From Gammaproteobacteria bacterium RIFCSPHIGHO2_12_FULL_38_11 (GTDB taxonomy: Bacteria > Pseudomonadota > Gammaproteobacteria > Coxiellales > Coxiellaceae): a stretch of 30,099 bases of DNA. This document shows positions 13,977 through 25,115 of this stretch, in pieces. How positions within the stretch are numbered: position 1 is the stretch's first letter; every line of letters starts with the position of its first letter. The notes beneath the pieces were generated by a model. The model saw nothing but the letters and a program-made list of their open reading frames with translations. It was not told the DNA's origin and did not search any database. A program made the translations under genes and the position numbers. The stretch covers positions 12,741-42,839 of the forward strand of contig MGXX01000021.1 in NCBI GenBank assembly GCA_001801515.1. The letters are read 5' to 3'.

Positions 13977-14024
13977 CCGTGTCTCGTGAAGAGTAAGGTG
14001 TAATCGGACATAAATTAACTCCGT

Positions 14025-14282
14025 TCAATCCGTGAATAATTCCAATCGCTCACTTCTTTTTTTCAGTAAAGCAAGATATTTTTCTTTCATGGCTTGTGAC
14101 ATAAAGCTAACTTTAAGCAAGGCTTGCCAATTTGGTAATGCCCGCTGAATTTCATTCATCACATCGGCACTTAATAATAACGGATGCAAATCTTTTAACT
14201 GAGGGGATAATAAATGCAGGCCTCGTTGCGAATAATTTTCACTCGCAGCAATTTTTTTGTAAGTAATGGGACAACGTTTCAT
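14025..14282 (-). pseudogene. HipT-like kinase with its kinase core deleted
   Basis: An 85-residue frame that joins the two ends of a HipT/HipA-type kinase. Residues 1-39 (MKRCPITYKKIAASENYSQR to LLSPQLKDLHPLLLSA) look like the start of HipT proteins; residues about 45-85 (RALPNWQALLKVSFMS followed by MKEKYLALLKKRSERLELF) look like their extreme C-terminus. Complete HipT kinases have about 300-310 residues, so some 220 residues are missing, including the ATP-binding loop, the NxDxHxxN catalytic loop and the DFG-like aspartate. The junction lies near base 14162 and preserves the frame. The start overlaps the stop of the HipS-like gene by 4 bases (ATGA). It cannot be a kinase; whether the short product is made or does anything is unknown. 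Confidence 0.7.
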
Positions 14283-14587
14283 GATAGTTCCTTAACCGTT
14301 ACTGCACCCACTAAATCATGTCCCACTTGAATTAACTGTCCAAAATAATCTTTTTTATCTAATTTATAGTTACGCAATAAAGCGTCAAGCATCATGCCTT
14401 CGGGCAATACCCCTTCAAAAAAGACAGGGAATTTTTCAAACACATAAATTTTTTTATCAATTGGTATGGTCAAAGAAATAGGCGCACCAGAATAATCAGT
14501 ATGATATACAAATTGATATTGACCATCAGGTAATTCTTCGAGTATTCCCGCTTCAATATCATGAACATATATTTTTGCTTTTCTCAT
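14279..14587 (-). CDS. HipS-like protein (HipA N-subdomain 1)
   Basis: A 102-residue protein that corresponds to the N-terminal subdomain of HipA encoded as a free protein, as in HipS of hipBST operons. The family features are YVHDIEAGILEELPDGQYQF (strand-rich N-terminus), PISLTIPIDKK, FFEGVLPEGMMLDALLRNYK and GQLIQVGHDLVGAVTV, where the LPEG and GxDxVGA boxes are characteristic. In E. coli O127 HipBST, HipS acts as the antitoxin toward the kinase HipT, while HipB is the DNA-binding component. Both ends overlap the neighbours by 4 bases (ATGA), so translation of the three frames is coupled. Since the adjacent kinase is gutted, this antitoxin now has no local target. Confidence 0.8.
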   Translation of the reverse strand: MRKAKIYVHDIEAGILEELPDGQYQFVYHTDYSGAPISLTIPIDKKIYVFEKFPVFFEGVLPEGMMLDALLRNYKLDKKDYFGQLIQVGHDLVGAVTVKELS

Positions 14588-14787
14588 GCTGGCGTTACCA
14601 ATTTTATTTGAATATTTAAAATGTCTAAGACTTTGAGCAAAGTGTTGAGCTGCACGGTTTCTTTGCCTTTTTCAATGTCAAATACAGCCGTTTTGCCGAC
14701 ACCAGCGAGCTTCGCTAATGTTTGTTGCGAAAGACCTGCGAGCTTACGGTAATCGTGGACTGTTTTTGCAATATTGTTTGAGTTCAT
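14584..14787 (-). CDS. HipB-like XRE-family repressor
   Basis: A 67-residue Xre/Cro helix-turn-helix protein. The HTH spans about residues 15-45: DYRKLAGLSQQTLAKLAGVG followed by KTAVFDIEKGKETVQLNTLL, typical of HipB, with the C-terminal strand IQIKLVTPA that in HipB dimers forms a shared sheet. The frame is open for another 130 codons upstream but those residues are not protein-like and overlap the ankyrin gene; the ATG at 14787 is right. It is the first gene of a hipB-hipS-hipT type operon, with ATGA overlap to the HipS gene. The two palindromes just upstream are presumably its operators, giving autorepression. Confidence 0.85.
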   Translation of the reverse strand: MNSNNIAKTVHDYRKLAGLSQQTLAKLAGVGKTAVFDIEKGKETVQLNTLLKVLDILNIQIKLVTPA

Positions 14788-14789
14788 AA

Positions 14790-14807
14790 TTACTGTTATA
14801 GCAGTAA
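14790..14807 (-). promoter_or_regulatory. Proximal HipB operator and promoter
   Basis: TTACTGTTATAGCAGTAA is an 18-base near-palindrome (one mismatch) ending 3 bases before the hipB ATG. On the minus strand a -35 box TTGTTT, a 17-base spacer and TATAAC (-10) place the -10 inside this operator, so a bound repressor would block transcription; a start site here would give a message with almost no leader. Confidence 0.65.
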
Positions 14808-14860
14808 AATAACTCGAAAACAAATTAATTGTGATTTTTAAGAAGCTATTATAGATTATA

Positions 14861-14878
14861 TTACTGCTATAGCAGTAA
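14861..14878 (-). promoter_or_regulatory. Distal HipB operator (perfect palindrome)
   Basis: TTACTGCTATAGCAGTAA is a perfect 18-base palindrome, matching the proximal site at 17 of 18 positions. The centres are 71 bases apart, about 6.8 helical turns, which would allow looping or cooperative binding. A TATAAT box lies between the two on the minus strand. Confidence 0.7.
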
Positions 14879-15016
14879 AAATAGAGATTCGGCTCCCGAC
14901 AGCGCACAGCAGTTAGCTTTATAGGCCAACCTTTTGAAATGTAAGCTCCTATTGCAAAGCAAGAGCAGGTATTCCAGAAGAAACGGTGCAAGATTTGGTG
15001 AAAGCAACTTATTGTG

Positions 15017-16696
15017 TCAAGGAAAAACGCGATTGGCGCTGCTGAATAGCAATCTCTCATCTTTGCTTTCAATTTCCGTACGCTGCAACAATGATTTCCT
15101 ACCAAAAATCGAAGCGCAATGAGTACTACCAAAAATAGAATCACAACGCGCATCTCCAATACTTTTAATGATTTCATCTTTTAAAAGTATTAAAGCTGCA
15201 GTATATTTTCTTTCCATCGCGTATTGCAGAGTGGATAAGGGTGATCCATCTCCTCTATCGCGCGGTAGGGTTAGGTCTGCTCCGTTTTCAATTAAGAATT
15301 TAAGAACAGCCGTAGCCTCGATAGAATCTGGATTTCGAAATGAAAATTTATTGTCGATTGCCCAATGAATGGGTAATTTATTGTGAAGATGGCCAGGTTT
15401 ATTGACATCTGCACCCATAGAAACTAGCTTTTGTAGTGCAGGAACATCATAACCATATTCTGCAGCTACACCCAGCACGGTATTTCCAAAATCATCATAC
15501 GCATTCACAGCTAACTTCAGCAATTTTTCCGGCGCATTCGTTAAATCAACCTTGCTAAATTTCTGTGGCCAGTTATTCTCGGCTCCAGCATGCGGGAAGG
15601 ATAATAAGAGCTGCGCTAAGATTTTGAGCTCTTCTTCGTTTAATGGCTGATCGCTTTCAACATAGTGTTTTGTTTGTGTGTTGGCATTCAGAAAATATCT
15701 TATTTTAGGACGGCAAGATTCAGTTTTTTGGGTTGGGTGCACATAAATAGTAGGTGTTGTTAATGCAGATGCTGCGTTTGAATCGTGACGTAAACTAAAA
15801 ATATTCGACTCACAACTGTGTTGGTAAGTAGAACAGGTTGCATTAATAGGAGAAATTTGTAATTGACATTGCGTTGTTTTACCGGCATTTCTCGCTACAA
15901 TATGAATATTTTGTTCACTTGAAAATAATTGTTGCCAAATACGCATAAAAAGCGATGTTTTTATCTCAAGTTTACAAGGCAGAGCACAATCGCGATTCGC
16001 CATCAATAATAAAACTTCTTCCGCTTTTTGCGGAGATACCCAGCGATTAAATTCAAATAAATATTTTTCAAGAAATGTCATCATCAATTGCATTGTAAAA
16101 AAAGCAATGGCATAAAAACCAGCTTGATTTTGTGGACGGTTCATTGTTTTTCGATCAAATAACATGGGCATTAAAAGAAAGAAAATGCTGATACCGATGA
16201 AAGAAATGGGGAGCTTTATCGATTCTTTCATCATCACTGTCGCCCACTGAAAAATTGAGAGAGGCGCGACAATATCGCGTTCAATAAGTGTATCGGGTAG
16301 GGCATTATAAAGATTAAATGCCAATTGACAGCCTATTGAAAATAACTGTGATACATAAAATAAAATTATTTTAATAAAACCGTCGGGGGATTTTTTTCTA
16401 CAGCATGCTGTCAGTTCATTTAGAACATATAGCAATGAAATGTGCACAGTTGTTAACTGCTGTTCATTGTAAAACAAATAGCCCAACGTGCTCATTCGCA
16501 ATAAGTTAATCGGCGAAATAGGCATAAGGTTACGCGCAGAAGAAAATTTATCGCTGGTATATTTTTCAAAACAATCCATTTTTAAAATAGTCAGCACGTT
16601 TTCAACGTAAAATAACGGTGGATAAGCACAAGATGCTAATTCAAGCGCTTTTTCAGCGGCTTTTTGACATGTATTCGACGTTTTATTTTTTTTCAT
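15017..16696 (-). CDS. Membrane-associated ankyrin-repeat protein, possible effector
   Basis: A 559-residue protein in three parts. Residues 1-240 hold several hydrophobic stretches (for example FIGISIFFLLMPMLF and AGFYAIAFFTMQLMMTFLEK) that look like membrane segments. Residues 240-370 are a linker with no recognisable motif. Residues about 370-520 carry two or three ankyrin-like repeats: DDFGNTVLGVAAEYGYDVPA, LQKLVSMGADVNKPG, then LPIHWAIDN and LKFLIENGADLTLPRD. Ankyrin proteins mediate protein contacts, and in Legionella and Coxiella many are Dot/Icm effectors. No signal peptide is present. The final 40 residues (after IIKSIGDARCDSIFG) repeat DSIFG/ASIFG and look non-homologous, perhaps acquired by frame drift into a neighbouring sequence. 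Function unknown; transport by Dot/Icm is inference. Confidence 0.7.
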   Translation of the reverse strand: MKKNKTSNTCQKAAEKALELASCAYPPLFYVENVLTILKMDCFEKYTSDKFSSARNLMPISPINLLRMSTLGYLFYNEQQLTTVHISLLYVLNELTACCRKKSPDGFIKIILFYVSQLFSIGCQLAFNLYNALPDTLIERDIVAPLSIFQWATVMMKESIKLPISFIGISIFFLLMPMLFDRKTMNRPQNQAGFYAIAFFTMQLMMTFLEKYLFEFNRWVSPQKAEEVLLLMANRDCALPCKLEIKTSLFMRIWQQLFSSEQNIHIVARNAGKTTQCQLQISPINATCSTYQHSCESNIFSLRHDSNAASALTTPTIYVHPTQKTESCRPKIRYFLNANTQTKHYVESDQPLNEEELKILAQLLLSFPHAGAENNWPQKFSKVDLTNAPEKLLKLAVNAYDDFGNTVLGVAAEYGYDVPALQKLVSMGADVNKPGHLHNKLPIHWAIDNKFSFRNPDSIEATAVLKFLIENGADLTLPRDRGDGSPLSTLQYAMERKYTAALILLKDEIIKSIGDARCDSIFGSTHCASIFGRKSLLQRTEIESKDERLLFSSANRVFP

Positions 16697-16975
16697 AAAT
16701 GGTCATCATAAATAACTTATTAATATCACGGTATTTGGCAACGATTGCTATCGTTTGTTGCTGAACAGTAAAAAAAAGCGTGAAAATAAAAAGAAGACAA
16801 AACATCAAGAGAAAAGAAATAAATATTAACATTGGGTTTGCCCCGTTTAACTTAATGTGTTAAAAATTCTATCAATTTTAAAAATAAGCACAACCACTTT
16901 ATCTGTACATTTCATACTGTATTTTTCAACCAATTGAATGATGAGAATAATTTCTTGGGTATTAGGAAATTAATT
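16697..16975. other. Intergenic stretch without a recognisable gene
   Basis: This AT-rich gap between the ankyrin gene and a secreted-protein remnant holds no frame with protein-like composition on either strand. It should contain the promoter of the ankyrin gene (minus strand), but I find no convincing -35/-10 pair. Confidence 0.5.
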
Positions 16976-17044
16976 TTATTTTTTAACGGTATGGTAGGTT
17001 AATGTCACTGTACAAGTTCCTGATGAATTTGTGTAAGCGTAACT
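16976..17044 (-). pseudogene. C-terminal remnant related to the exported protein at 21.4-21.8 kb
   Basis: After the stop of the HipS-HTH gene the same frame continues as SYAYTNSSGTCTVTLTYHTV KK and stops at 16976-16978. It matches TTYTSSSGTCQVTLTEDTN of the frameshifted exported protein at 21409-21811. The DNA also matches: 16999-17039 and 21514-21554 agree at roughly nine of ten positions. No start or signal peptide is present here, so it is a tail left from a second gene of that family. Confidence 0.6.
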
Positions 17045-17689
17045 TCACATACTTTCCAAGAAATAGCGGCGCAATCGCATGAGTGTTTGATGATGTATTG
17101 TGCCGCCTGTTTGTTGCAATTGCCACAGTGCAACGTCAGGAAAGGTGAGAAAGATTTCAATTTTTTTTAACGCAGAATCATCCTTGCTTTTGCCTGCCTC
17201 TATTCGTTGCAGTGTTGCTTGGCTAATATGAAATGCATGAGCAAAATCGTATTGTGTAATATCAAGCCTATCTCTAAATTTAGTAATGTCGCTTGGTTTG
17301 AAATTAGTTTGATAAATAGGCTCAAAAATAAAGCTTGAAGGACCACGTTTTCCAATGGTTCCTAATAACACAATTGGGTTTGTTTCATCGATTGCAACAT
17401 TTTGAGAACGACAATAATCAGCATAAGCAGGATTGTTTCGATCAGGAATACGGTCCAAAAATATAGGGAACATTTTTCCTTTTTCTGAGCAATAAATTGA
17501 TTGAAATAAATTGAACTCCGGCCCTAATGGAATAGCGTTTTTTGAGTAACGATAGTGATCATCATAGAAGAATAAATAACAATCTTCAGTTGCTTTGTAA
17601 CAAATCTCCCCTACATAAATGCGGCGTTTTTTATTCTCCTGAAAAATATGAATACGTGTTTTATCAAGCATGAGTTGATAGTGCGTCAT
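17045..17689 (-). CDS. HipS-like domain fused to HTH, partner of the HipA-like kinase
   Basis: A 214-residue protein with two parts. Residues about 24-124 resemble HipA N-subdomain 1 (IYVGEICYKATEDCYLFFYD, IPLGPEFNL, FLDRIPDRNNPAYADYC, NPIVLLGTIGKRGPSSFIFE). Residues 133-182 form a helix-turn-helix (KFRDRLDITQYDFAHAFHIS, QATLQRIEAGKS). So one protein joins the roles that HipS and HipB have in hipBST: holding the kinase and binding DNA. The ATG at 17689 has a GGGAG box 5 bases upstream and overlaps the kinase gene by 26 bases, which indicates translational coupling. The kinase comes first, the reverse of hipBA and hipBST order. I expect it to be the antitoxin and autorepressor; that is inferred from domain content. 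Its stop is followed by a remnant of an unrelated gene. Confidence 0.75.
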   Translation of the reverse strand: MTHYQLMLDKTRIHIFQENKKRRIYVGEICYKATEDCYLFFYDDHYRYSKNAIPLGPEFNLFQSIYCSEKGKMFPIFLDRIPDRNNPAYADYCRSQNVAIDETNPIVLLGTIGKRGPSSFIFEPIYQTNFKPSDITKFRDRLDITQYDFAHAFHISQATLQRIEAGKSKDDSALKKIEIFLTFPDVALWQLQQTGGTIHHQTLMRLRRYFLESM

Positions 17690-18581
17690 ATAACTCCCGA
17701 TTTCTTTTAAAAATTAATCGTTGCATTGCTGCTTTCATTAACGCTGTGCATGGATTCGTTAAAATAGCCGTTTTAATTGCGTTGTCACTGAAAGTTATTT
17801 TTTTATAAAAATCTTGGCAGATTTGTCCGTAACCGAGCCTCATGAATTCAGCGACATAGTGCGTCATGCTTGGCTCAAGAGAACATCGAGTAGCAATTTT
17901 TCCTGTGGGGTTAAAATCCGCATGAAGCATCTTTCCATGCTCTAATCCTAGATAAGAAACGTTGTCATATGTCGGCGATAATTGATATCCAGAAGAGGAT
18001 GCAATAAATGCTAAATTTCTTCCATGACGATCATGATTACCAATTAAAGCATCAAATAATACCATATGAATAAACATCAAAATATCGCGAGGTTGTTTTG
18101 TGTATTCCTTAATAACATACATTAATGTTTCACAATCATGAGGTTCATTCGTTCTAAAATGATAAATATGCTGTAAATCTAATCCATGGCGACCGGCAAT
18201 AAAATTTTTTGTGACAAATACACGGTCTCCTGTAAATTCAAGATAATAAAACTGAGCGGTTGAAATACCCAGTATTGCTGCTATTTTATTGCATAAATAT
18301 TCTACCTCTGGTAATTCAGGCGCTTCCGGTTCTCGCATTTTCAATATATAAGATTCACCATTGAGTATCGCTGTATATTTTTTGAATTTTCCGTGAAAAA
18401 AACTTGAATTGTCTGGGTCTATAATAAGACCATCGCTTGAAGATGCCGTTGCTTTACGTTGCAATCCAGTAAACACAGGGAGTGTTTCTGATTGAAACCA
18501 AATCTTAAAACAAGCAGGATGCAGCCCATAGTGAGCAGGTTCACTGGGGTTTAATGGATGGTTGCATTTGTAACATTGCAT
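17664..18581 (-). CDS. HipA-like Ser/Thr kinase with N-terminal zinc finger
   Basis: A 305-residue complete-looking HipA-family kinase lacking N-subdomain 1, which is encoded in the next gene. Residues 1-30 form a probable zinc finger (CYKC at 3-6, HPAC at 21-24). Then follow a glycine-type loop SFFHGKFKKY (60-69), the ATP lysine in YILKM (Lys81), the catalytic loop NHDRHGRN (182-189, Asp184) and the metal aspartate in SPTYDN (Asp206). All key kinase residues are present. HipA of E. coli phosphorylates glutamyl-tRNA synthetase and HipT tryptophanyl-tRNA synthetase; the target here is unknown. The ATG at 18581 follows a promoter at 18620-18648. It lies upstream of, and overlaps by 26 bases, the HipS-HTH gene, so the pair is a probable toxin-antitoxin module. 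Confidence 0.8.
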   Translation of the reverse strand: MQCYKCNHPLNPSEPAHYGLHPACFKIWFQSETLPVFTGLQRKATASSSDGLIIDPDNSSFFHGKFKKYTAILNGESYILKMREPEAPELPEVEYLCNKIAAILGISTAQFYYLEFTGDRVFVTKNFIAGRHGLDLQHIYHFRTNEPHDCETLMYVIKEYTKQPRDILMFIHMVLFDALIGNHDRHGRNLAFIASSSGYQLSPTYDNVSYLGLEHGKMLHADFNPTGKIATRCSLEPSMTHYVAEFMRLGYGQICQDFYKKITFSDNAIKTAILTNPCTALMKAAMQRLIFKRNRELYDALSTHA

Positions 18582-18600
18582 AGATGAAATGTCCTATGAA

Positions 18601-18656
18601 ATCGATATTGATTGGTATCATAATAAATCAATTTATTGATGATATCAATATAAATC
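18601..18656 (-). promoter_or_regulatory. Promoter and imperfect inverted repeat before the kinase operon
   Basis: On the minus strand TTGATA (-35, 18643-18648), a 17-base spacer and TATTAT (-10, 18620-18625) form a good sigma-70 promoter, giving a leader of about 30 bases before the kinase ATG. The -35 to start region holds an imperfect inverted repeat (ATATTGAT...TATCAT against ATGATATCAATAT) that covers both boxes and is the obvious candidate operator for the HipS-HTH protein. Confidence 0.6.
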
Positions 18657-18723
18657 GGAGTTCTGGATTTTTTAATGCCGAATTATCACAATATAATCTT
18701 TTAAATAATAAGCTTTCTGAAAA

Positions 18724-19869
18724 TCAGCAAGCCATGGAGGAATTCTTCAACCACTCCGCAAAACACTCATCTTCAAACGCATAAACCCCACGACTCGATT
18801 GCCAAATAAATTCTTGTTCGCGCAGTGTTTGGATGGCAGTTTGTACAGTAGAAACAGACAAAATCGGTTGATTAATGGCGTGTTGATAATGCTGCATTGA
18901 TTCTTCAGAAAAAGGAGACCATGCACGGCCTTGCTTAACCAATAACGTTAAAATAGCACGATGCAACGGTTGTAGCGCATTGAAATCATTTTCAAACTCT
19001 TCCCAAATCTGCATATTCCAAGTAGAAACATCTTGTTTTAATAAATCAGAAAAAGAAGCGGCATCATGACAAATCGCAACTCGCCCAACCATTTGCCGTA
19101 ATATTTCAGGGCGATGACCAATGAATTGAAATGCTTCCCACATACTGTCTTTATTAAACTGATTATTTTTAGCCAATGCTTTATTCACTTCAACAGTAAA
19201 AAAATCCGTGAAATCTTTTCCCAGCAAAGGAAACGCGGTGATTTCAGAACCAAAAAAGGGCTGATCTTTTTTAATGACCAACTGTGCCAACTTATCTCGA
19301 TTAGAACCTGTCAATACCAGCATTAAATCAGATGTTTTATGCAATTTATTAATTTGATCGCGTGCTGATTTAATAGAAAACATAGCATTAATACCTTCTT
19401 TCGACGTTAACGCATGCTGTGCTTCATCAATAATTAACATCACAGGTTTTTCTGCCAATTGAATCAATTGATTTAAGATATCTACCAAAGTGACATTATC
19501 AGGCAATCCGGGTTTTGAAAAATCTAATTCAACGGTCTTTAAAATATTAATTTTTTGAAGTTTTACTTTATGCGCTAATTTAATTAACTTATTTTTATAG
19601 GTTGCAATGCTGGTTTTTATCGCTTCGGTAATTAATAATGCAGGATCAGTGAGTTTGTTTGCCCATAAATCAACATACACAGGCAACCAATGCCGCGCTT
19701 TCGCTTCGGGAATTAAATCTTCAATTAGAAATGTGCTTTTTCCGACGCGACGAGGCCCTGCAAGAAATAAGCCGGAAGTGGCATTGGCAATGCCTTTTCC
19801 TGCAACGCTATCGCAATACGCTTTAGCAAGGTGCGCCCGTTTGAATGCAAAATTTTCTAGCATGGTCAT
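18724..19869 (-). CDS. AAA+ ATPase with C-terminal winged-helix
   Basis: A 381-residue P-loop ATPase of the STAND/AAA_16-like group. Walker A is GPRRVGKST, Walker B is MLIIDEAQ followed by HALTSKEG, and sensor 1 is LVLTGSNRDKL. The C-terminal third (RAILTLLVKQGRAWSPFSEE, then VSTVQTAIQTLREQEFIWQSSRGVYAFED) looks like a winged helix. Proteins of this type are frequent in mobile or accessory DNA of Legionellales, and their role is not established. The start may be ATG 19869 or 19863; a TTG at 19884 is also possible and none has a good ribosome site. A second, deleted copy of this gene lies at 23.8-24.1 kb. It is divergent from the DUF4143 ATPase, with a shared 170-base control region. Confidence 0.75.
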   Translation of the reverse strand: MTMLENFAFKRAHLAKAYCDSVAGKGIANATSGLFLAGPRRVGKSTFLIEDLIPEAKARHWLPVYVDLWANKLTDPALLITEAIKTSIATYKNKLIKLAHKVKLQKINILKTVELDFSKPGLPDNVTLVDILNQLIQLAEKPVMLIIDEAQHALTSKEGINAMFSIKSARDQINKLHKTSDLMLVLTGSNRDKLAQLVIKKDQPFFGSEITAFPLLGKDFTDFFTVEVNKALAKNNQFNKDSMWEAFQFIGHRPEILRQMVGRVAICHDAASFSDLLKQDVSTWNMQIWEEFENDFNALQPLHRAILTLLVKQGRAWSPFSEESMQHYQHAINQPILSVSTVQTAIQTLREQEFIWQSSRGVYAFEDECFAEWLKNSSMAC

Positions 19870-19985
19870 CTGAATTACGTTCAATTATTTTAAATTAGGT
19901 AATTTATGTAACTTAACATAATTTGACGTAATTGGCCAGCCATGTGTTGGAGGCTTTAAGTGGGATTATCAAGAAAGTAGACAAC

Positions 19986-20029
19986 ACTCCGAAAATGGCG
20001 TACAATTCCGGAATTAACTCCGAAATTGG
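19986..20029. promoter_or_regulatory. TCCG-repeat operator upstream of the DUF4143 ATPase
   Basis: ACTCCGAAAATGG (19986-19998) and ACTCCGAAATTGG (20017-20029) are direct repeats that agree at 12 of 13 positions and lie 31 bases apart, three helical turns. Exactly between them is the 12-base palindrome AATTCCGGAATT (20004-20015), which contains the same TTCCG core. The cluster ends 12 bases before the ATG at 20042, so it is well placed as an operator. Confidence 0.55.
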
Positions 20030-20041
20030 ATTTCTTACTTT

Positions 20042-21223
20042 ATGCAAAAACGTTTACTAACATTGCCTGAAAACTACAGTTTCTTTTTATTCGGCGCACG
20101 CGGCGTTGGTAAAAGTACTTGGATCCGCCATTCTTTTAATACAAAAGCAGTATTTTGGATTGATCTATTGGATCCATCAGCTGAAGATCGTTACAACAAA
20201 AATCCAGCTATATTGTTGCAAGAAGTGCGCGCATTACCAGAAGCAATACGCTATGTGGTTATCGATGAAATTCAAAAAGCACCGAAATTATTAGACGTTG
20301 TTCACAGCTTGATTGAAAGTACAAATAAATATTTTGTATTAACAGGCTCAAGTGCTAGGAAATTAAAACACGGCGGCGCGAATCTGTTAGCAGGTCGCGC
20401 CTTTGTCAAACATCTTTACCCGTTTACGTTTATAGAGCTAAAAGAAAAATTTAATTTAGAGCAAGCGCTGGCAATCGGCATGCTGCCCAAGGTTTGGGAT
20501 TTTAACGCAAAAGAAGAACAATGGGCATTTCTGGAAGCATACACCTATACCTACCTAAAAGAAGAAATATGGGCAGAACACCTAATTAAAAAATTAGAAC
20601 CTTTCCGAAAATTTTTAGAAGTGGCCGCTCAAAGTAATGGTAAAATCATCAATTATTCCAATATCGCAAAAGACTGTGGTGTTGATGATAAAACCGTTAA
20701 AACTTATTTTAGTATTTTAGAGGACACCTGGGCTGGTTTTATGCTCGAGCCTTATCAACACTCTTTTCGCAAGCGTCTTACGCAAAAACCAAAATTTTAT
20801 TTTTTTGATGTTGGTGTAGCACGAACGTTAGCGCGAACGCATCGTATCGCATTCACACCTCAAACATTTTCTTACGGGGATTATTTTGAACAATTTATCA
20901 TTACGGAATGCTATAAGTTATGCCAATACTTTTATCCTGATTATCGTTTATATTTTCTGCGTACCAAGGATGATTTGGAAATTGATTTGGTAGTTGAAAG
21001 ACCCGGAAAACCGCTGCTTTTTATTGAAATTAAAAGCTGCACCCAGGTTGACGATAGCGTGCTATCCAGCCTTAAAAAAATTCATACGGATTTACCGACA
21101 GCTGAATTTTGGTGCATTAGTAACGACCCCATTAGAAAAATATTTTATGATGGTATAATACAAGCCTTTCACTGGCAGGAGGCACTCAGAAGTCTCATGC
21201 CGGATGATTTTAAATTGATATAA
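20042..21223 (+). CDS. AAA_14/DUF4143 ATPase with nuclease-like C-terminal domain
   Basis: A 393-residue protein. Walker A is GARGVGKST (18-26), Walker B is VVIDEIQKAP, sensor 1 is FVLTGSSARKLK, and the arginine-rich LLAGRAF follows, all typical of the AAA_14 domain. The C-terminal half has the DUF4143 pattern: winged helix (INYSNIAKDCGVDDKTVKTY FSILEDT region), YFFDVGVAR and the restriction-endonuclease-fold residues D..EIDLVVE..LLFIEIKS. Such proteins are widespread in bacteria and archaea and often lie in mobile or defence-rich DNA; their biochemical role is largely open. The last nine codons (MPDDFKLI and stop) are repeated at 24173-24199, just before lpxC, which shows that this gene was once adjacent to lpxC. 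A TCCG-repeat operator precedes it. Confidence 0.8.
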   Translation: MQKRLLTLPENYSFFLFGARGVGKSTWIRHSFNTKAVFWIDLLDPSAEDRYNKNPAILLQEVRALPEAIRYVVIDEIQKAPKLLDVVHSLIESTNKYFVLTGSSARKLKHGGANLLAGRAFVKHLYPFTFIELKEKFNLEQALAIGMLPKVWDFNAKEEQWAFLEAYTYTYLKEEIWAEHLIKKLEPFRKFLEVAAQSNGKIINYSNIAKDCGVDDKTVKTYFSILEDTWAGFMLEPYQHSFRKRLTQKPKFYFFDVGVARTLARTHRIAFTPQTFSYGDYFEQFIITECYKLCQYFYPDYRLYFLRTKDDLEIDLVVERPGKPLLFIEIKSCTQVDDSVLSSLKKIHTDLPTAEFWCISNDPIRKIFYDGIIQAFHWQEALRSLMPDDFKLI

Positions 21224-21411
21224 TAATTTAAGCCGCTTCCGACTCCATTTCCGAATAACAAATCGGCACACTCGCCTCATCTTTAAATGTCACATATTCC
21301 CACGCATCCGGCTGCGATAATAATTGATTCATTAATTATTTATTCATGGCATGACCCGATTTGTACCCCGTAAATGCGTCAATTAAACCAGAATCCAATA
21401 AATAAAAATCA
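21197..21411. repeat. Left 215-bp direct repeat (DUF4143 end plus lpxC end)
   Basis: It matches 24173-24387 without gaps, offset 2976. The first 90 bases or so are identical, and divergence grows to the right (about a dozen mismatches in total). It contains the last 27 bases of the DUF4143 gene and the 3' end of lpxC. Confidence 0.9.
21228..21411 (-). pseudogene. Duplicate of the 3' end of lpxC
   Basis: On the minus strand this encodes the last ~60 residues of LpxC, ending PICYSEMESEAA and stop, as at 24204. A CAA codon of the intact gene (after GHAMNK) is TAA here, so the copy is interrupted, and it lacks the rest of the gene. It is a by-product of the rearrangement that brought in the RloAB segment. 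Confidence 0.85.
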
Positions 21412-21811
21412 ATAATTATGGAATGTTAATATTGTGTTATTGCCACTTACCGAGCAAAGTTTGCCACCGTACTGGTCAGTTGCAGTGAGTTTTATGCTGT
21501 TTGTATCTTCAGTTAATGTCACTTGACAAGTTCCCGATGAACTTGTGTAAGTAGTAGTGCAAGGAAATGATGATGGGTTTGCTGATGTAACACCTTGAAT
21601 AACTGCGCCTGTTGAGGATGTTGTTGTGGCTACAGAAGCTGGAAAAGTAATTCCTGGACAGGCTCCTGCTGATGCGGCGGGGGTTGTATAAGTATTTTTG
21701 TTGTTATTGAAGATCAAATAGCCAACTTGCGCTTTCGCAGCCAATGCTGAGCCCGATGCAAACACTGTTTATTACTGCTAGTGCAGCTAATGCATATTTA
21801 GTTTGTTTCAT
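21409..21811 (-). pseudogene. Frameshifted small exported protein
   Basis: The ATG at 21811 has a GAGGA ribosome site 7 bases upstream and encodes MKQTKYALAALAVIN, the start of a signal peptide. One extra base near 21766 shifts the frame; in the +1 frame the peptide continues as VFASGSALAAKAQVGYL with a good AxA cleavage site, and then about 110 residues rich in Thr and Ser with cysteine pairs (CPGIT, FPCTTTY, GTCQVTL, LCSVSG). Restored, the product has about 133 residues and is secreted; the beta-rich sequence with paired cysteines recalls minor pilin-like or adhesin-like proteins, but I cannot assign a family. A related tail lies at 16976-17044. Confidence 0.65.
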
Positions 21812-21846
21812 AAGTAATCCTCACATTTTTTATAGGGTTTTTATTC

Positions 21847-21875
21847 ACAATACAGTCTCAGAACACTTACGTCAA
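21847..21875 (-). promoter_or_regulatory. Promoter of the frameshifted exported-protein gene
   Basis: On the minus strand TTGACG (21870-21875), a 17-base spacer and TATTGT (21847-21852) lie about 36 bases before the ATG. The rest of the gap 21876-22006 shows no gene. Confidence 0.55.
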
Positions 21876-22006
21876 TCCATTGCCTTGCGTCCTGTCAGTA
21901 AAAAACTAAATTGAGTCTAGCAAGCTCAAACTGTTATGTACATAATTTTTATTTTAGAATTTCTATTGAATAATAGTCGATTGATGCAGCGATTGAGTAT
22001 CGCTAC

Positions 22007-22501
22007 TTATTTTTTAACTAATTTCAATAAATTTTGAATGCTTTTTTCTGTTGACTCCATCAGTATCTTTTTCGGAAAAAATTTTCCGTAATTTTCCATC
22101 ACTGTAGAATCATTATTAACGTAAAGCGCGAACCGTTTTTTCAATGCGCTAGCAACACCACTATCTGACTTTCCCAAAACACGTAACAACATTGCTTCAA
22201 AACAAGGTTCTGATGCCAACAGCGTTATTGAATTCTTTTCAGCTTTTTTTCGCACATCGGAATTCCAGCAGGTCGTATCGGTATCAAACACAACGGCCAC
22301 TCTATCATAATCGGCATTAAAGGTTTGGCGAATCGTCCAATCAATCACGTGTTTGGCACCCTTTCCCTTTGCGTTTTTTATTTTAATTTGCCTACCATCA
22401 ACGCGTTCTGAGAAAAGTTGTTTTACATGATTTAAAAAAGCCACTTCACTATACCCCTCACCAACAATTAACAGAGTTTCTTTTGCTTTCCATGTCGACA
22501 T
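22007..22501 (-). CDS. RloB-like TOPRIM protein
   Basis: A 164-residue protein of the RloB group. The TOPRIM core shows TLLIVGEGYSEVAFLNHVK, with Glu15 as the likely metal ligand, and VAVVFDTDT with Asp73 and Asp75. The segment ASEPCFEAMLLRVLG corresponds to the 'P(C/S)FExWxLLH' box that typifies RloB. It is somewhat shorter than usual RloB proteins of about 200 residues. The Rlo genes were named for their linkage to type I restriction loci; TOPRIM/ATPase pairs such as PARIS (AriA/AriB), OLD and Gabija act against phages, so this is probably the nuclease effector of the upstream ATPase. The ATG follows a GAGAAAAA box, 8 bases after the ATPase stop, so the two genes form an operon. Confidence 0.75.
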   Translation of the reverse strand: MSTWKAKETLLIVGEGYSEVAFLNHVKQLFSERVDGRQIKIKNAKGKGAKHVIDWTIRQTFNADYDRVAVVFDTDTTCWNSDVRKKAEKNSITLLASEPCFEAMLLRVLGKSDSGVASALKKRFALYVNNDSTVMENYGKFFPKKILMESTEKSIQNLLKLVKK

Positions 22502-22509
22502 TGTTTTTC

Positions 22510-23688
22510 TCAGAGATTGGGAATTGCGCCATAATGGCCAGCCATATATTTTGCATAGAAGTTATCGTCGCTACGGATTCCCTCTATTGCATCCAATCGA
22601 CAAGCCGTACTTTCGCAATGGTCATTTTTTTGCACCAGCATGATCTGAGATTTATGGACTAAATTCAATATTTCAGCAGCATGGCAAGAAAATAATAATT
22701 GAGCATTGCACGGATTAGTTTTCGGATTTGCAAATAAATCTAAAATAGGCTCTAACATATGCGGGTGTAAATCGTTTTCAAGTTCATCAATAATGGCAAC
22801 GCCACCCTTTTCCAGAACCGGCAACAATAACGCGAGCAAACAAAATGCTGCTCGAGTACCATTTGATTCATCTGAGAATAACAACTTATATTCTTTCTTG
22901 TTACTTTTATGCAAACCTATCGGCAACCAAATTTTTTGAGAACCGTTTGGGAGATTGGTTTCTTTTTCTAGCAATTCAACTCCGGATAATCCTAAATCCC
23001 AGGAAGACAATAGTTTTTCCATTTGTTGAAACTGTTTTTTGTTGATTGAAAAATATTTCGCAGCGCTGGTTATTGCAAGATCCACAACGGGCAAACGATC
23101 TGCAATACTGACGTTACTCACTATTGAAAGACGTGCAAAATCTTTTGCTAACGGAACACCATATTGTCCCGCGGTAGAAATAAGAGAAGCGTTCTGCCGT
23201 ACTTTCAGCGCTTCTTGCAAATTAAAATCAAAATCCTGTAGCTTGATGTCGTAACATTTTTTTGCATCATTCCATTCACGCACGAAAACATAACCAAATC
23301 GCTCGCGCTTTTGATAAAGTGCTTCAAATAAAACGCATTCTCGCGTACAACGTAATTCATATCGATACAATTTATCATCAAGGTCAAATAATATGCTAAA
23401 TTCTGTTGGTTTACGCTCGGCAGAAAAATGCGGAGAAATAGGAATGGATGATTCAGGGGCGCTTTGAAAAGATGTATTAATAAACCAACCCAAAAATGCC
23501 AAGGGTTTAAGTAATGCTGTTTTACCACCACCATTTGCGCCCAGAACTGCCATTAATTTTGAAACACGTTCACCATTCTTTGTTTCGCACAGAAAATGGG
23601 TTAGCTCTACCTTTTTGGTAACAGTCAGATCAACCCGAGTAGATTTTTTGAATGACTGGAAATTTGTGAAGCTGTAATTATAAATCAT
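22510..23688 (-). CDS. RloA-like ABC/SMC-type AAA ATPase
   Basis: A 392-residue ATPase of the AAA_15/AAA_21 group (SMC/RecF/OLD-like head). It starts YNYSFTNFQSFKKSTRVDLT, the usual beginning of this family. Walker A is GANGGGKT (50-57). The signature-like segment is FSDESNGTRAAFCLLALLLP, Walker B is GGVAIIDELENDLHPHM, and the histidine switch is LLFSCHAAEIL. Paired with RloB in one operon it resembles RloAB modules; by analogy with PARIS (AriA/AriB) the ATPase would sense a phage trigger and control the TOPRIM partner. It has its own strong promoter at 23733-23760. It lies in DNA flanked by direct repeats, as expected for an acquired module. Confidence 0.8.
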   Translation of the reverse strand: MIYNYSFTNFQSFKKSTRVDLTVTKKVELTHFLCETKNGERVSKLMAVLGANGGGKTALLKPLAFLGWFINTSFQSAPESSIPISPHFSAERKPTEFSILFDLDDKLYRYELRCTRECVLFEALYQKRERFGYVFVREWNDAKKCYDIKLQDFDFNLQEALKVRQNASLISTAGQYGVPLAKDFARLSIVSNVSIADRLPVVDLAITSAAKYFSINKKQFQQMEKLLSSWDLGLSGVELLEKETNLPNGSQKIWLPIGLHKSNKKEYKLLFSDESNGTRAAFCLLALLLPVLEKGGVAIIDELENDLHPHMLEPILDLFANPKTNPCNAQLLFSCHAAEILNLVHKSQIMLVQKNDHCESTACRLDAIEGIRSDDNFYAKYMAGHYGAIPNL

Positions 23689-23732
23689 ACGATTAACTGC
23701 CGTTTATATAAATAATCAACAATGTTTCGTTT

Positions 23733-23781
23733 ATTATAGCAGTTATAATTAATTTTTCAAGCATCAAAACACATCAAAACA
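23733..23781 (-). promoter_or_regulatory. Promoter and tandem repeat of the RloAB-like operon
   Basis: On the minus strand TTGAAA (23755-23760), a 16-base spacer ending TGC, and TATAAT (23733-23738) form a near-consensus promoter with an extended -10. Directly upstream, the 10-base unit CATCAAAACA stands twice head to tail (23762-23781), a possible activator or repressor site. The leader is about 35-40 bases. Confidence 0.65.
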
Positions 23782-23841
23782 CAAAGCTGTTATCGAACCC
23801 TAAAATTTATTCGTATCAATGAAATCAATAATTGAATGTCC

Positions 23842-24148
23842 CTAATCCGCGCCCCGCACATTCCTCAACCACTCCGCAAAACTATCGTCTTCCAATGCAT
23901 AAACCCCACGACTCGATTGCCAAATAAATCCTTGTTCGCAAAGCGTTTGAATGGCAGTTTGTACGGTAGAAATAGACAAAGTCGCTTGATTGATAGTGTG
24001 TCGGTAGTACTGTATTGACTCTTCGGAAAAAGGAGACCATGTTCGGCCTTGTTTAACCAATAATTTGATCGCGTGCGGATTTAATAGAAAACATAGCATT
24101 AACACCTTCTTTCGAGGTTAACGCATGCTGCACTTCATCAATAATAAA
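23842..24148 (-). pseudogene. Deleted copy of the AAA+ ATPase at 18.7-19.9 kb
   Basis: Two parts of the ATPase at 18724-19869 are joined. On the minus strand 24148 to about 24068 encodes IIDEVQHALTSKEGVNAMFS and SIKSARDQI (Walker B region). It then jumps to LLVKQGRTWSPFSEESIQYY and the winged-helix tail, ending near EWLRNVRGAD. Relative to the intact gene about 400 bases are missing, with a TAA microhomology at the junction, and the two parts are in different frames. The Walker A half is absent. Confidence 0.8.
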
Positions 24149-24172
24149 ACCACCATAATTGTTCAACTTTTA

Positions 24173-24387
24173 ATGCCGGATGATTTTAAATTGATATAAT
24201 AATTTAAGCCGCTTCCGACTCCATTTCCGAATAACAAATCGGCACACTCGCCTCATCTTTAAACGTGACATATTCCCACGCATCCGGCTGGGACAATAAT
24301 GCATTCATTAATTGTTTATTCATGGCATGACCCGATTTGTACCCCGTAAATGCACCAATTAAACCAGAACCCAATAAATATAAATCA
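24173..24387. repeat. Right 215-bp direct repeat (DUF4143 end plus lpxC end)
   Basis: The counterpart of 21197-21411. It starts with the last 27 bases of the DUF4143 gene (ATGCCGGATGATTTTAAATT then GATATAA), here without the rest of that gene, and continues into the functional 3' end of lpxC. Confidence 0.9.
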
Positions 24388-25115
24388 CCAATCACATCTA
24401 ATATTTTGTGTTTTACAAATTCATCCGGATCACGCAAACCTTCTTCATTAACAACTTTATCAACATCCAACACAACCGTATTATCCAAATTCGCACCGCG
24501 TGCTAAATTTTTTGCACGCATCATGTCGTAATCCGCTAAAAACCCAAATGTGCGTGCGCGTGCTATTTCTTTAATATATAAGGCGGAAGAAAAATCAAAT
24601 GTGATCGCTTGTTTGCTGCGGGAAATCACCGGATGATTAAACGCAATTTTAAATGAAATTTGAAATCCATCATAAGGCGCTAATCGCGCGACTTTATCAC
24701 CATTTTTTACTTCAATTGTTTTTTTAATACGAATAAATTTTTTTGCTGCATTTTGTTCTTCAATGCCGGCTGATTGAATTAAAAAAACAAAAGGATCAGC
24801 ACTGCCATCCATAATCGGCAATTCAGATAATGACAAATCAACGAAACAATTATCAATGCCCAAGCCAGCAAACGCCGATAATAAATGTTCAACTGTCGCG
24901 ATACGAAGATTTCCCTTTTCTAAACAAGTACAAGAATCTGTGTTACCCACAAAATCAACCAGCGCTGGAATAGAAATGATTTGACCTGATTCAACACGAC
25001 GAAAAACAATACCTGTGCTAATCGGCGCAGGAGATAATTTTAGTGACACCTGCTCACCCGAATGAACACCGATGCCTGTTGCACTGATTGCATTTTTTAG
25101 GGTCCGCTGTTTCAT
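24204..25115 (-). CDS. lpxC: UDP-3-O-acyl-N-acetylglucosamine deacetylase LpxC
   Basis: LpxC, the zinc enzyme that performs the committed step of lipid A synthesis in the cytosol. It has 303 residues, the family norm. It starts MKQRTLKNAISATGIGVHSG; the zinc ligands are His77 in TVEHLLSAFAGLGID, and His236 and Asp240 in HKILDVIGD; the catalytic base pair includes Glu76 and His263 in GYKSGHAMNK. It follows ftsZ by 37 bases, the usual last gene of the dcw cluster. The protein is intact even though its 3' end is part of a duplication. The presence of LpxC indicates a lipopolysaccharide-bearing outer membrane. Confidence 0.97.
   Translation of the reverse strand: MKQRTLKNAISATGIGVHSGEQVSLKLSPAPISTGIVFRRVESGQIISIPALVDFVGNTDSCTCLEKGNLRIATVEHLLSAFAGLGIDNCFVDLSLSELPIMDGSADPFVFLIQSAGIEEQNAAKKFIRIKKTIEVKNGDKVARLAPYDGFQISFKIAFNHPVISRSKQAITFDFSSALYIKEIARARTFGFLADYDMMRAKNLARGANLDNTVVLDVDKVVNEEGLRDPDEFVKHKILDVIGDLYLLGSGLIGAFTGYKSGHAMNKQLMNALLSQPDAWEYVTFKDEASVPICYSEMESEAA

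Follow-up and report, generated by a model that had tools for sequence, protein, structure and literature searches.

A kinase-first Hip gene pair with a HipS-like domain joined to a helix-turn-helix, predicted to be a toxin-antitoxin module

The 30,099-nucleotide stretch of contig MGXX01000021.1 from Gammaproteobacteria bacterium RIFCSPHIGHO2_12_FULL_38_11 (hereafter the window) carries a bicistronic gene pair on its minus strand. The first open reading frame (ORF) encodes a HipA-like kinase, and the second encodes a protein, here called the fusion protein, that joins a HipS-like (HipA N-subdomain-1) domain to a helix-turn-helix (HTH). The original prediction for this locus, made from the sequence alone, had placed the kinase gene first with a 26-base overlap, and the ORF coordinates confirm both points. 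The parts of the pair and of its upstream region are as follows:

17664-18581, minus strand: kinase ORF, 305 amino acids, HipA-type, predicted toxin, first gene of the pair
18462-18581, minus strand: N-terminal mini-domain of the kinase (approximately residues 1-40), with candidate zinc ligands C3, C6, H21, and C24 (CxxC...HxxC)
17045-17689, minus strand: fusion ORF, 214 amino acids, predicted antitoxin and repressor, downstream of the kinase
17664-17689, minus strand: gene overlap, 26 bases common to the kinase and fusion ORFs
17312-17662, minus strand: HipS-like part, fusion residues 10-126, limits taken from structure
17111-17308, minus strand: Cro/C1-type HTH part, fusion residues 128-193
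18620-18648, minus strand: sigma-70-like promoter TTGATA-17-TATTAT (-35 at 18648-18643, -10 at 18625-18620), 10/12, a consensus match only
18603-18621 and 18639-18657, no strand: inverted repeat with 19-nt arms, 79% complementary, a candidate operator that holds TGATATCA

The kinase matches HipA_C (PF07804, E 5.2e-24, above the Pfam cut-off) and has no PF13657 match at E 1 although its partner does, i.e. it is a short kinase without N-subdomain 1. Its AlphaFold2 model is confident (mean predicted local distance difference test [pLDDT] score 93.8, from a 67-sequence alignment). Conservation was read from 58 full kinases (the window and 57 loci), where "full" means a profile match over nearly the entire model, a definition that favors rows with an intact N-terminus. 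Residues C3, C6, H21, C24, S60, G64, K68, K81, E94, N189, and D206 are invariant in all 58, and D184 is kept in 57. The features that mark the Hip kinase superfamily (HipA_C, Gly-rich loop, Lys, catalytic Asp, and Mg-binding Asp) are all present, and the proposal of a HipA-like kinase with its catalytic residues complete is borne out by PF07804 and by this alignment. The protein is a predicted Ser/Thr kinase of the Hip superfamily.

The N-terminal mini-domain is modeled with high confidence (pLDDT 95-97 over residues 1-40), and its CxxC...HxxC pattern, found in 30/30 kinases that reach the model start in a kinase-seeded survey, suggests that it binds zinc. Background on Hip kinases is taken here from published work (PMC10627512, PMC9325769, PMC9758233, PMC10653801, and PMC13092281). 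The Escherichia coli kinase HipT(Ec) also begins with a mini-domain (residues 1-41), whose significance is unknown according to those who solved the E. coli HipBST structure. Aligned by structure, our kinase and HipT(Ec) (7ab3_C) match from model residue 1 at chain residue 2 onward, with 280/305 residues aligned. At the level of the domain, the putative zinc finger takes the place of the HipT mini-domain. The same CxxC...HxxC pattern occurs in 3/3 translated Bacteroidota HipTs (Hymenobacter, Bacteroides, and Runella plasmids), all of them in hipB-hipS-hipT operons, and the HipT of a Legionella sp. contig (L012) keeps only part of it (CPIT...GLH). Direct sequence matches of the finger to HipT are weak (locus L114, i-Evalue 5.8e-4 with Z set to 1; L112, -0.7 bits), the match in L113 is part of one long alignment, and the sequence comparison gave no N-terminal match to the HipT of L107. 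A zinc finger unique to the kinase-fusion module is ruled out by the Bacteroidota HipTs and by a fold alignment that starts inside the HipT mini-domain. Of the zinc-finger kinase originally described, the pattern itself stood (58/58 kinases) and its peculiarity to this module did not. Given the position of the HipT mini-domain, the Bacteroidota HipTs, and the partial pattern in L012, short Hip kinases have probably long had the finger, and the fusion-linked kinases have kept it whole. Tying the HipT mini-domain to a conserved four-ligand zinc pattern makes its role testable.

In the fusion protein, Couple_hipA (PF13657) covers residues 25-117 (E 2e-6) and HTH_3 (PF01381) residues 137-181 (E 9.8e-7), both above the Pfam cut-offs, and no HIRAN match was found at E 1. 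The AlphaFold2 model has a mean pLDDT of 95.7 from a 74-sequence alignment, in which R80, P82, N86, Y92, and C93 are invariant. Pfam, the AlphaFold2 models, and structural alignment thus agree on a HipS-like domain joined to an HTH. Profile searches for HipA_C, HipA_N, and HTH_3, together with structure predictions of each protein alone, had been proposed as checks; HipA_C, Couple_hipA, and HTH_3 were matched, both models are confident, and the limits of the HipS-like domain, which had been put at residues 24-124, are corrected to 10-126.

Upstream of the kinase gene, the sigma-70-like site overlaps the inverted repeat, as predicted. Promoter-like sites are not enriched in the scanned region of the window (9 vs 9.1 in shuffles). 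Among relatives, we compared 55 upstream regions of 150 bases (the window and 54 loci) with their dinucleotide shuffles, using stretches inside the kinase gene as controls. In 32/55 upstream regions (the window is not one of the 32) vs 2/55 controls, there is an inverted repeat that ranks within the best 5% for the shuffles of that region. The exact word TGATATCA is found in 10/55 upstream regions, the window included (0.8 expected), and in 22/55 with up to one mismatch (11.0 expected); these counts are descriptive, because the word was picked after inspecting the repeats. The upstream repeats of the relatives support autoregulation, which had been proposed for this pair and which we regard as likely in the family on sequence grounds.

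Protein searches at E 1e-3 returned 249 relatives of the fusion protein and 714 of the kinase, of which the best 120 of each were listed. A fusion-seeded scan with two exact peptide patterns, covering 84,980 species at one genome each, yielded 71 fusion loci. In 67 of these, the fusion ORF is immediately preceded by a complete or partial kinase ORF in the same orientation (57 full length); the 4 others include L068 and L071, which start at a contig end. Where the two genes are paired, they overlap by 1-71 bases in 64/67 loci, and the remaining 3 have no ATG near the start of the fusion ORF. The converse search (kinase query at E 1e-25) covered 190 Chlamydiota and 191 Bdellovibrionota genomes, including both sample centers, which were chosen for carrying the module. 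Kinases were found in 19 and 14 genomes, respectively, and a fusion ORF adjoins the kinase in 36/36 loci of these 33/381 genomes (two fusion ORFs, in L143 and L161, are partial). By comparison of lists, all 33 genomes are also among those matched by the fusion profile. The conserved pairing anticipated by the original prediction, i.e. the conserved adjacent two-gene operon that serves as a criterion of type II toxin-antitoxin systems, was therefore found from either side (36/36 and 67/71). Distance matrices of kinase and fusion protein correlate over 55 pairs (r = 0.865; highest of 2000 permutations, 0.221), and much of this correlation would come from common descent alone. As side observations, an Oligoflexia contig carries a second, partial module copy (L034, 8158-8898) approximately 2 kb from the whole one, and in L145 (1462-1902) the kinase frame keeps its first hundred or so residues and its C-terminal end, with the core lost and the fusion frame open.

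We consider it likely that the pair is a bicistronic type II toxin-antitoxin module with a T-SB organization: the HipS part would inhibit the kinase, and the HTH would act as repressor of the operon. The mechanism that we infer comprises toxicity, neutralization, DNA binding, zinc binding, translational coupling, and a phosphorylated target. Free kinase would halt growth; its substrate may be an aminoacyl-tRNA synthetase, as for HipA and E. coli HipT. The HipS-like domain would sit on the N-lobe of the kinase next to the Gly-rich loop and shut out ATP, the HTH would hold the kinase-fusion complex on the palindromic operator upstream of the kinase gene, and through the overlap of the genes, translation of the antitoxin may be coupled to the end of the kinase gene. 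In HipBST, according to published work, the antitoxin is HipS, whose site of action is the kinase P-loop in both E. coli and Legionella pneumophila; HipS(Ec) inhibits through Trp65, beside Glu63, and this Trp is present in many HipS orthologues, not all.

Loci in which the kinase is missing or reduced count for this toxin-antitoxin reading. L016 retains only kinase scraps (the zinc-finger start and a C-terminal scrap, upstream of 5956) and no kinase was found upstream of the fusion ORF in L021; in both, the fusion ORF stays open behind operator-like sequence. Several observations weigh on the other side. Where E. coli HipS has the Trp-bearing PEGW, the fusion family reads DRIPxxxNPAYxDYC. PEGW is present in 3 Bacteroidota HipS rows, and in L107 the L. 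pneumophila-type HipS retains PEG but lacks the Trp, for which reason the inhibitory Trp is a weak criterion. The alignment suggests a different contact at the same place in the fusion family, where Tyr89 could replace the Trp. The best inverted repeat of the window is equaled by 17% of shuffles and is not significant; the predicted promoter-repeat overlap thus holds in position and not, within the window, in significance. Fusion ORFs also break or become partial (L143, L161, G230, G267, and L070), which rules out one-sided toxin loss as proof of the roles; because both genes decay, the surveys do not prove which of them is the antitoxin. Finally, the toxicity of HipT(Lp) from L. pneumophila is reportedly not rescued by TrpS or GltX, and a synthetase target, drawn by analogy, is a guess.

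By record title, the 71 fusion loci comprise Bdellovibrionota-type (12), Chlamydiae (12), Legionella or Legionellales (11), Alphaproteobacteria including Holosporales (9), other Gammaproteobacteria (8), unspecified Proteobacteria (5), Omnitrophota (3), Verrucomicrobia (3), Deltaproteobacteria (2), Elusimicrobia (1), Sumerlaeota (1), and unnamed bacteria (4). No Bacteroidota, Bacillota, or Actinomycetota are among these titles, which holds only for the two-pattern scan. At E 1e-15, the fusion is present in 11/140 genomes of the G001 family, 21/190 of the G004 phylum, 14/191 of the G005 phylum, 5/321 of the G001 class, and 5/289 of the G007 class; each sample includes its own center, phyla are named by locus titles (L035, Chlamydiae; L030, Bdellovibrionales), and the G001-family and G004-phylum searches were run at E 1e-3 with rows then counted at E 1e-15. 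This patchy spread, together with an Elusimicrobia row that neighbors a proteobacterial row in the kinase tree (90/84), suggests horizontal transfer of the module. The kinase query found no module member in phages, viral contigs, or plasmids, where the fusion was not searched. Specifically, 9 pattern matches in the viral scan include no relative, 4 plasmid matches span 67-68% of the kinase with 25-28% identity, 1 phage match spans 24% of it with 38% identity, and the PHROGs matches are weak (best E 3.5e-9 for the kinase and 7.5e-6 for the HTH).

The distribution also bears on two other explanations. We think it very improbable that the kinase acts in a eukaryotic host after export, with a partner that merely silences it inside the bacterium: predatory Bdellovibrionota need no eukaryotic host, and translocation of HipT(Lp) was reportedly not reproduced. 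It is improbable, though somewhat less so, that the kinase is a non-toxic regulator and its partner an ordinary transcription factor under phosphorylation control. The HTH could serve other target genes and the toxicity of the kinase is a prediction, both of which suit such a regulator; the patchy distribution and the decay in some genomes fit a toxin-antitoxin module better. To our knowledge, the HipS domain is met only as the lid or inhibitor of a Hip kinase, which also counts against a regulator.

The toxin-antitoxin reading leaves room for a purpose in defense, and the neighborhood of the pair bears on this. The surrounding features of the window are as follows:

13977-24203: segment of 10.2 kb between dciA/secA and lpxC, with defense-like genes, including the kinase-fusion module
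24204-25115: lpxC, flanking the segment
22007-23688: AbiLi/AbiLii-like pair (E 3.6e-70 and 7.5e-12)
20042-21223: PDC-S01-like AAA-DUF4143 ATPase (E 5.6e-59)
15017-16696, minus strand: ankyrin-repeat protein, 559 amino acids, with ankyrin matches at approximately 392-476 and hydrophobic stretches before them (by eye)
14025-14787, minus strand: second hip operon in the classic order hipB-hipS-hipT
14584-14787, minus strand: hipB of the second operon
14279-14587, minus strand: hipS of the second operon (PF13657, E 2.1e-23)
14025-14282, minus strand: hipT remnant of the second operon, 85 amino acids, N- and C-terminal ends kept, catalytic core lost, one open frame

That the pair is an anti-phage defense module, with a kinase that triggers abortive infection once a phage interferes with the fusion protein or its hold on DNA, is possible but less likely than not. 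The module shares its segment with the AbiLi/AbiLii-like pair and the PDC-S01-like ATPase, and both of its proteins match the PADLOC candidate defense system PDC-M03 (A, the kinase, E 2.3e-15; B, the HipS-like part, E 2.8e-9). The four PDC-M03B relatives tested all carry HIRAN, like HipN of hipIN, and PDC-M03 therefore corresponds to hipIN as far as tested. Phage protection is reported for a kinase system of the HipA family (DS-6, HipAD). However, PDC-M03 is only a candidate system whose B protein has another second domain; the argument is one of guilt by association and concerns purpose rather than mechanism, and it is compatible with the toxin-antitoxin module set out above.

The gap between dciA and lpxC is shorter in two other genomes. 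A dciA match (25% identity, E 5e-7) lies approximately 0.4 kb from lpxC in G001, and the dciA-lpxC distance is 2.8 kb in G003, where secA shares 81% identity with that of the window; in G010 no dciA was found within the 14 kb around lpxC. Two 18-bp palindromes TTACTGCTATARCAGTAA (14790-14807 and 14861-14878) precede hipB of the second operon as candidate operators recognized by eye, and they are unlike the TGATATCA element. The L012 contig (1-7826) carries the kinase-fusion module and a complete hipBST within 5 kb, along with two integrase-like ORFs and another small toxin-antitoxin-like gene pair identified by reading. Since both are present in the window and in L012, the kinase-fusion module and hipBST coexist and are distinct.

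A more ambitious account would combine an inhibitor-repressor in one chain, a zinc-locked switch displaced by the antitoxin, and a horizontally spread infection-aborting system in intracellular and predatory bacteria; as a whole we think it unlikely. If true, kinase release and promoter opening would be one event, and the mini-domain near the P-loop would be the switch. The displacement idea comes from HipT(Lp), whose N-terminal helices are invisible once HipS is bound, and is opposed by the E. coli HipBST complex, in which the same region is reportedly ordered.

A hipBST operon assigns inhibition and DNA binding to two proteins, HipS and HipB, of which HipB is not the antitoxin (Gerdes 2021). 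Both jobs on one chain would tie kinase release to derepression, and the pair is a simple two-protein system for dissecting Hip kinase control.

Ten organizations of Hip kinase genes are described in Gerdes 2021, and those with the kinase first and a HipS-type partner are hipIN (HipS-HIRAN) and hipJS (HipS alone). A HipS domain joined to an HTH is not among them, the nearest being hipIN. The architecture had been called biochemically uncharacterized; a kinase-first order with a HipS-type partner has been described before, and it is the HipS-HTH joining that is absent from those descriptions. The family was not found in the open-access literature that was searched.

The pair resembles hipBST (E. 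coli O127, L. pneumophila, and Bacteroidota) in its short kinase without N-subdomain 1, its HipS-type partner, and its N-terminal mini-domain, and HipT(Lp) is the best solved relative of the kinase by sequence profile and tops the fold list jointly with CtkA. It differs in that hipBST has three genes in the order B-S-T with a separate HipB, whereas here the order is T then S-B, the exact reverse, and the PEGW of E. coli-type HipS is missing. With hipIN it shares a kinase-first order and a partner with a HipS-like domain; the second domain of HipN is HIRAN whereas that of the fusion protein is an HTH, and six HipI kinases (our label for kinases beside PDC-M03B) lack the CxxC...HxxC N-terminus by eye. 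HipN was left out of the HipS-region alignment, because a loose NPAY-like motif matched none of 11 loci. Like hipJS, the pair has its kinase first and a HipS-type partner second, but the HipS of hipJS stands alone without an HTH. The hipBA, hipAB, and hipEB systems also pair an HTH protein with a Hip kinase, with the kinase first in hipAB and hipEB; their HipS-like lid is on the kinase, whereas here it is on the HTH protein.

A tree of kinase cores (4 HipT, 6 HipI, 7 HipA, and 17 of the 58 fusion-linked kinases) joins the fusion-linked kinases with HipI (branch 100/100), and a clade with HipT is marginally rejected (approximately unbiased test, p-AU 0.041). A simple derivation from hipBST is therefore unsupported by the tree, while the kinase profile scores point the opposite way and favor HipT (54-77 bits, 4 rows) over HipA (28-37 bits, 7 rows); kinases beside PDC-M03B score 23-55 bits (8 rows, two of them short frames). 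We hold the tree placement loosely, given its long branches, which are very long for two HipA rows, and given that the fusion-linked kinases do not form a strict clade against HipI. Lacking the three-gene B-S-T order of one and the HIRAN of the other, the pair is neither hipBST nor hipIN, and is a variant within the Hip superfamily. The family is real and widespread, yet it recombines known parts, and it adds one organization to the ten listed in 2021.
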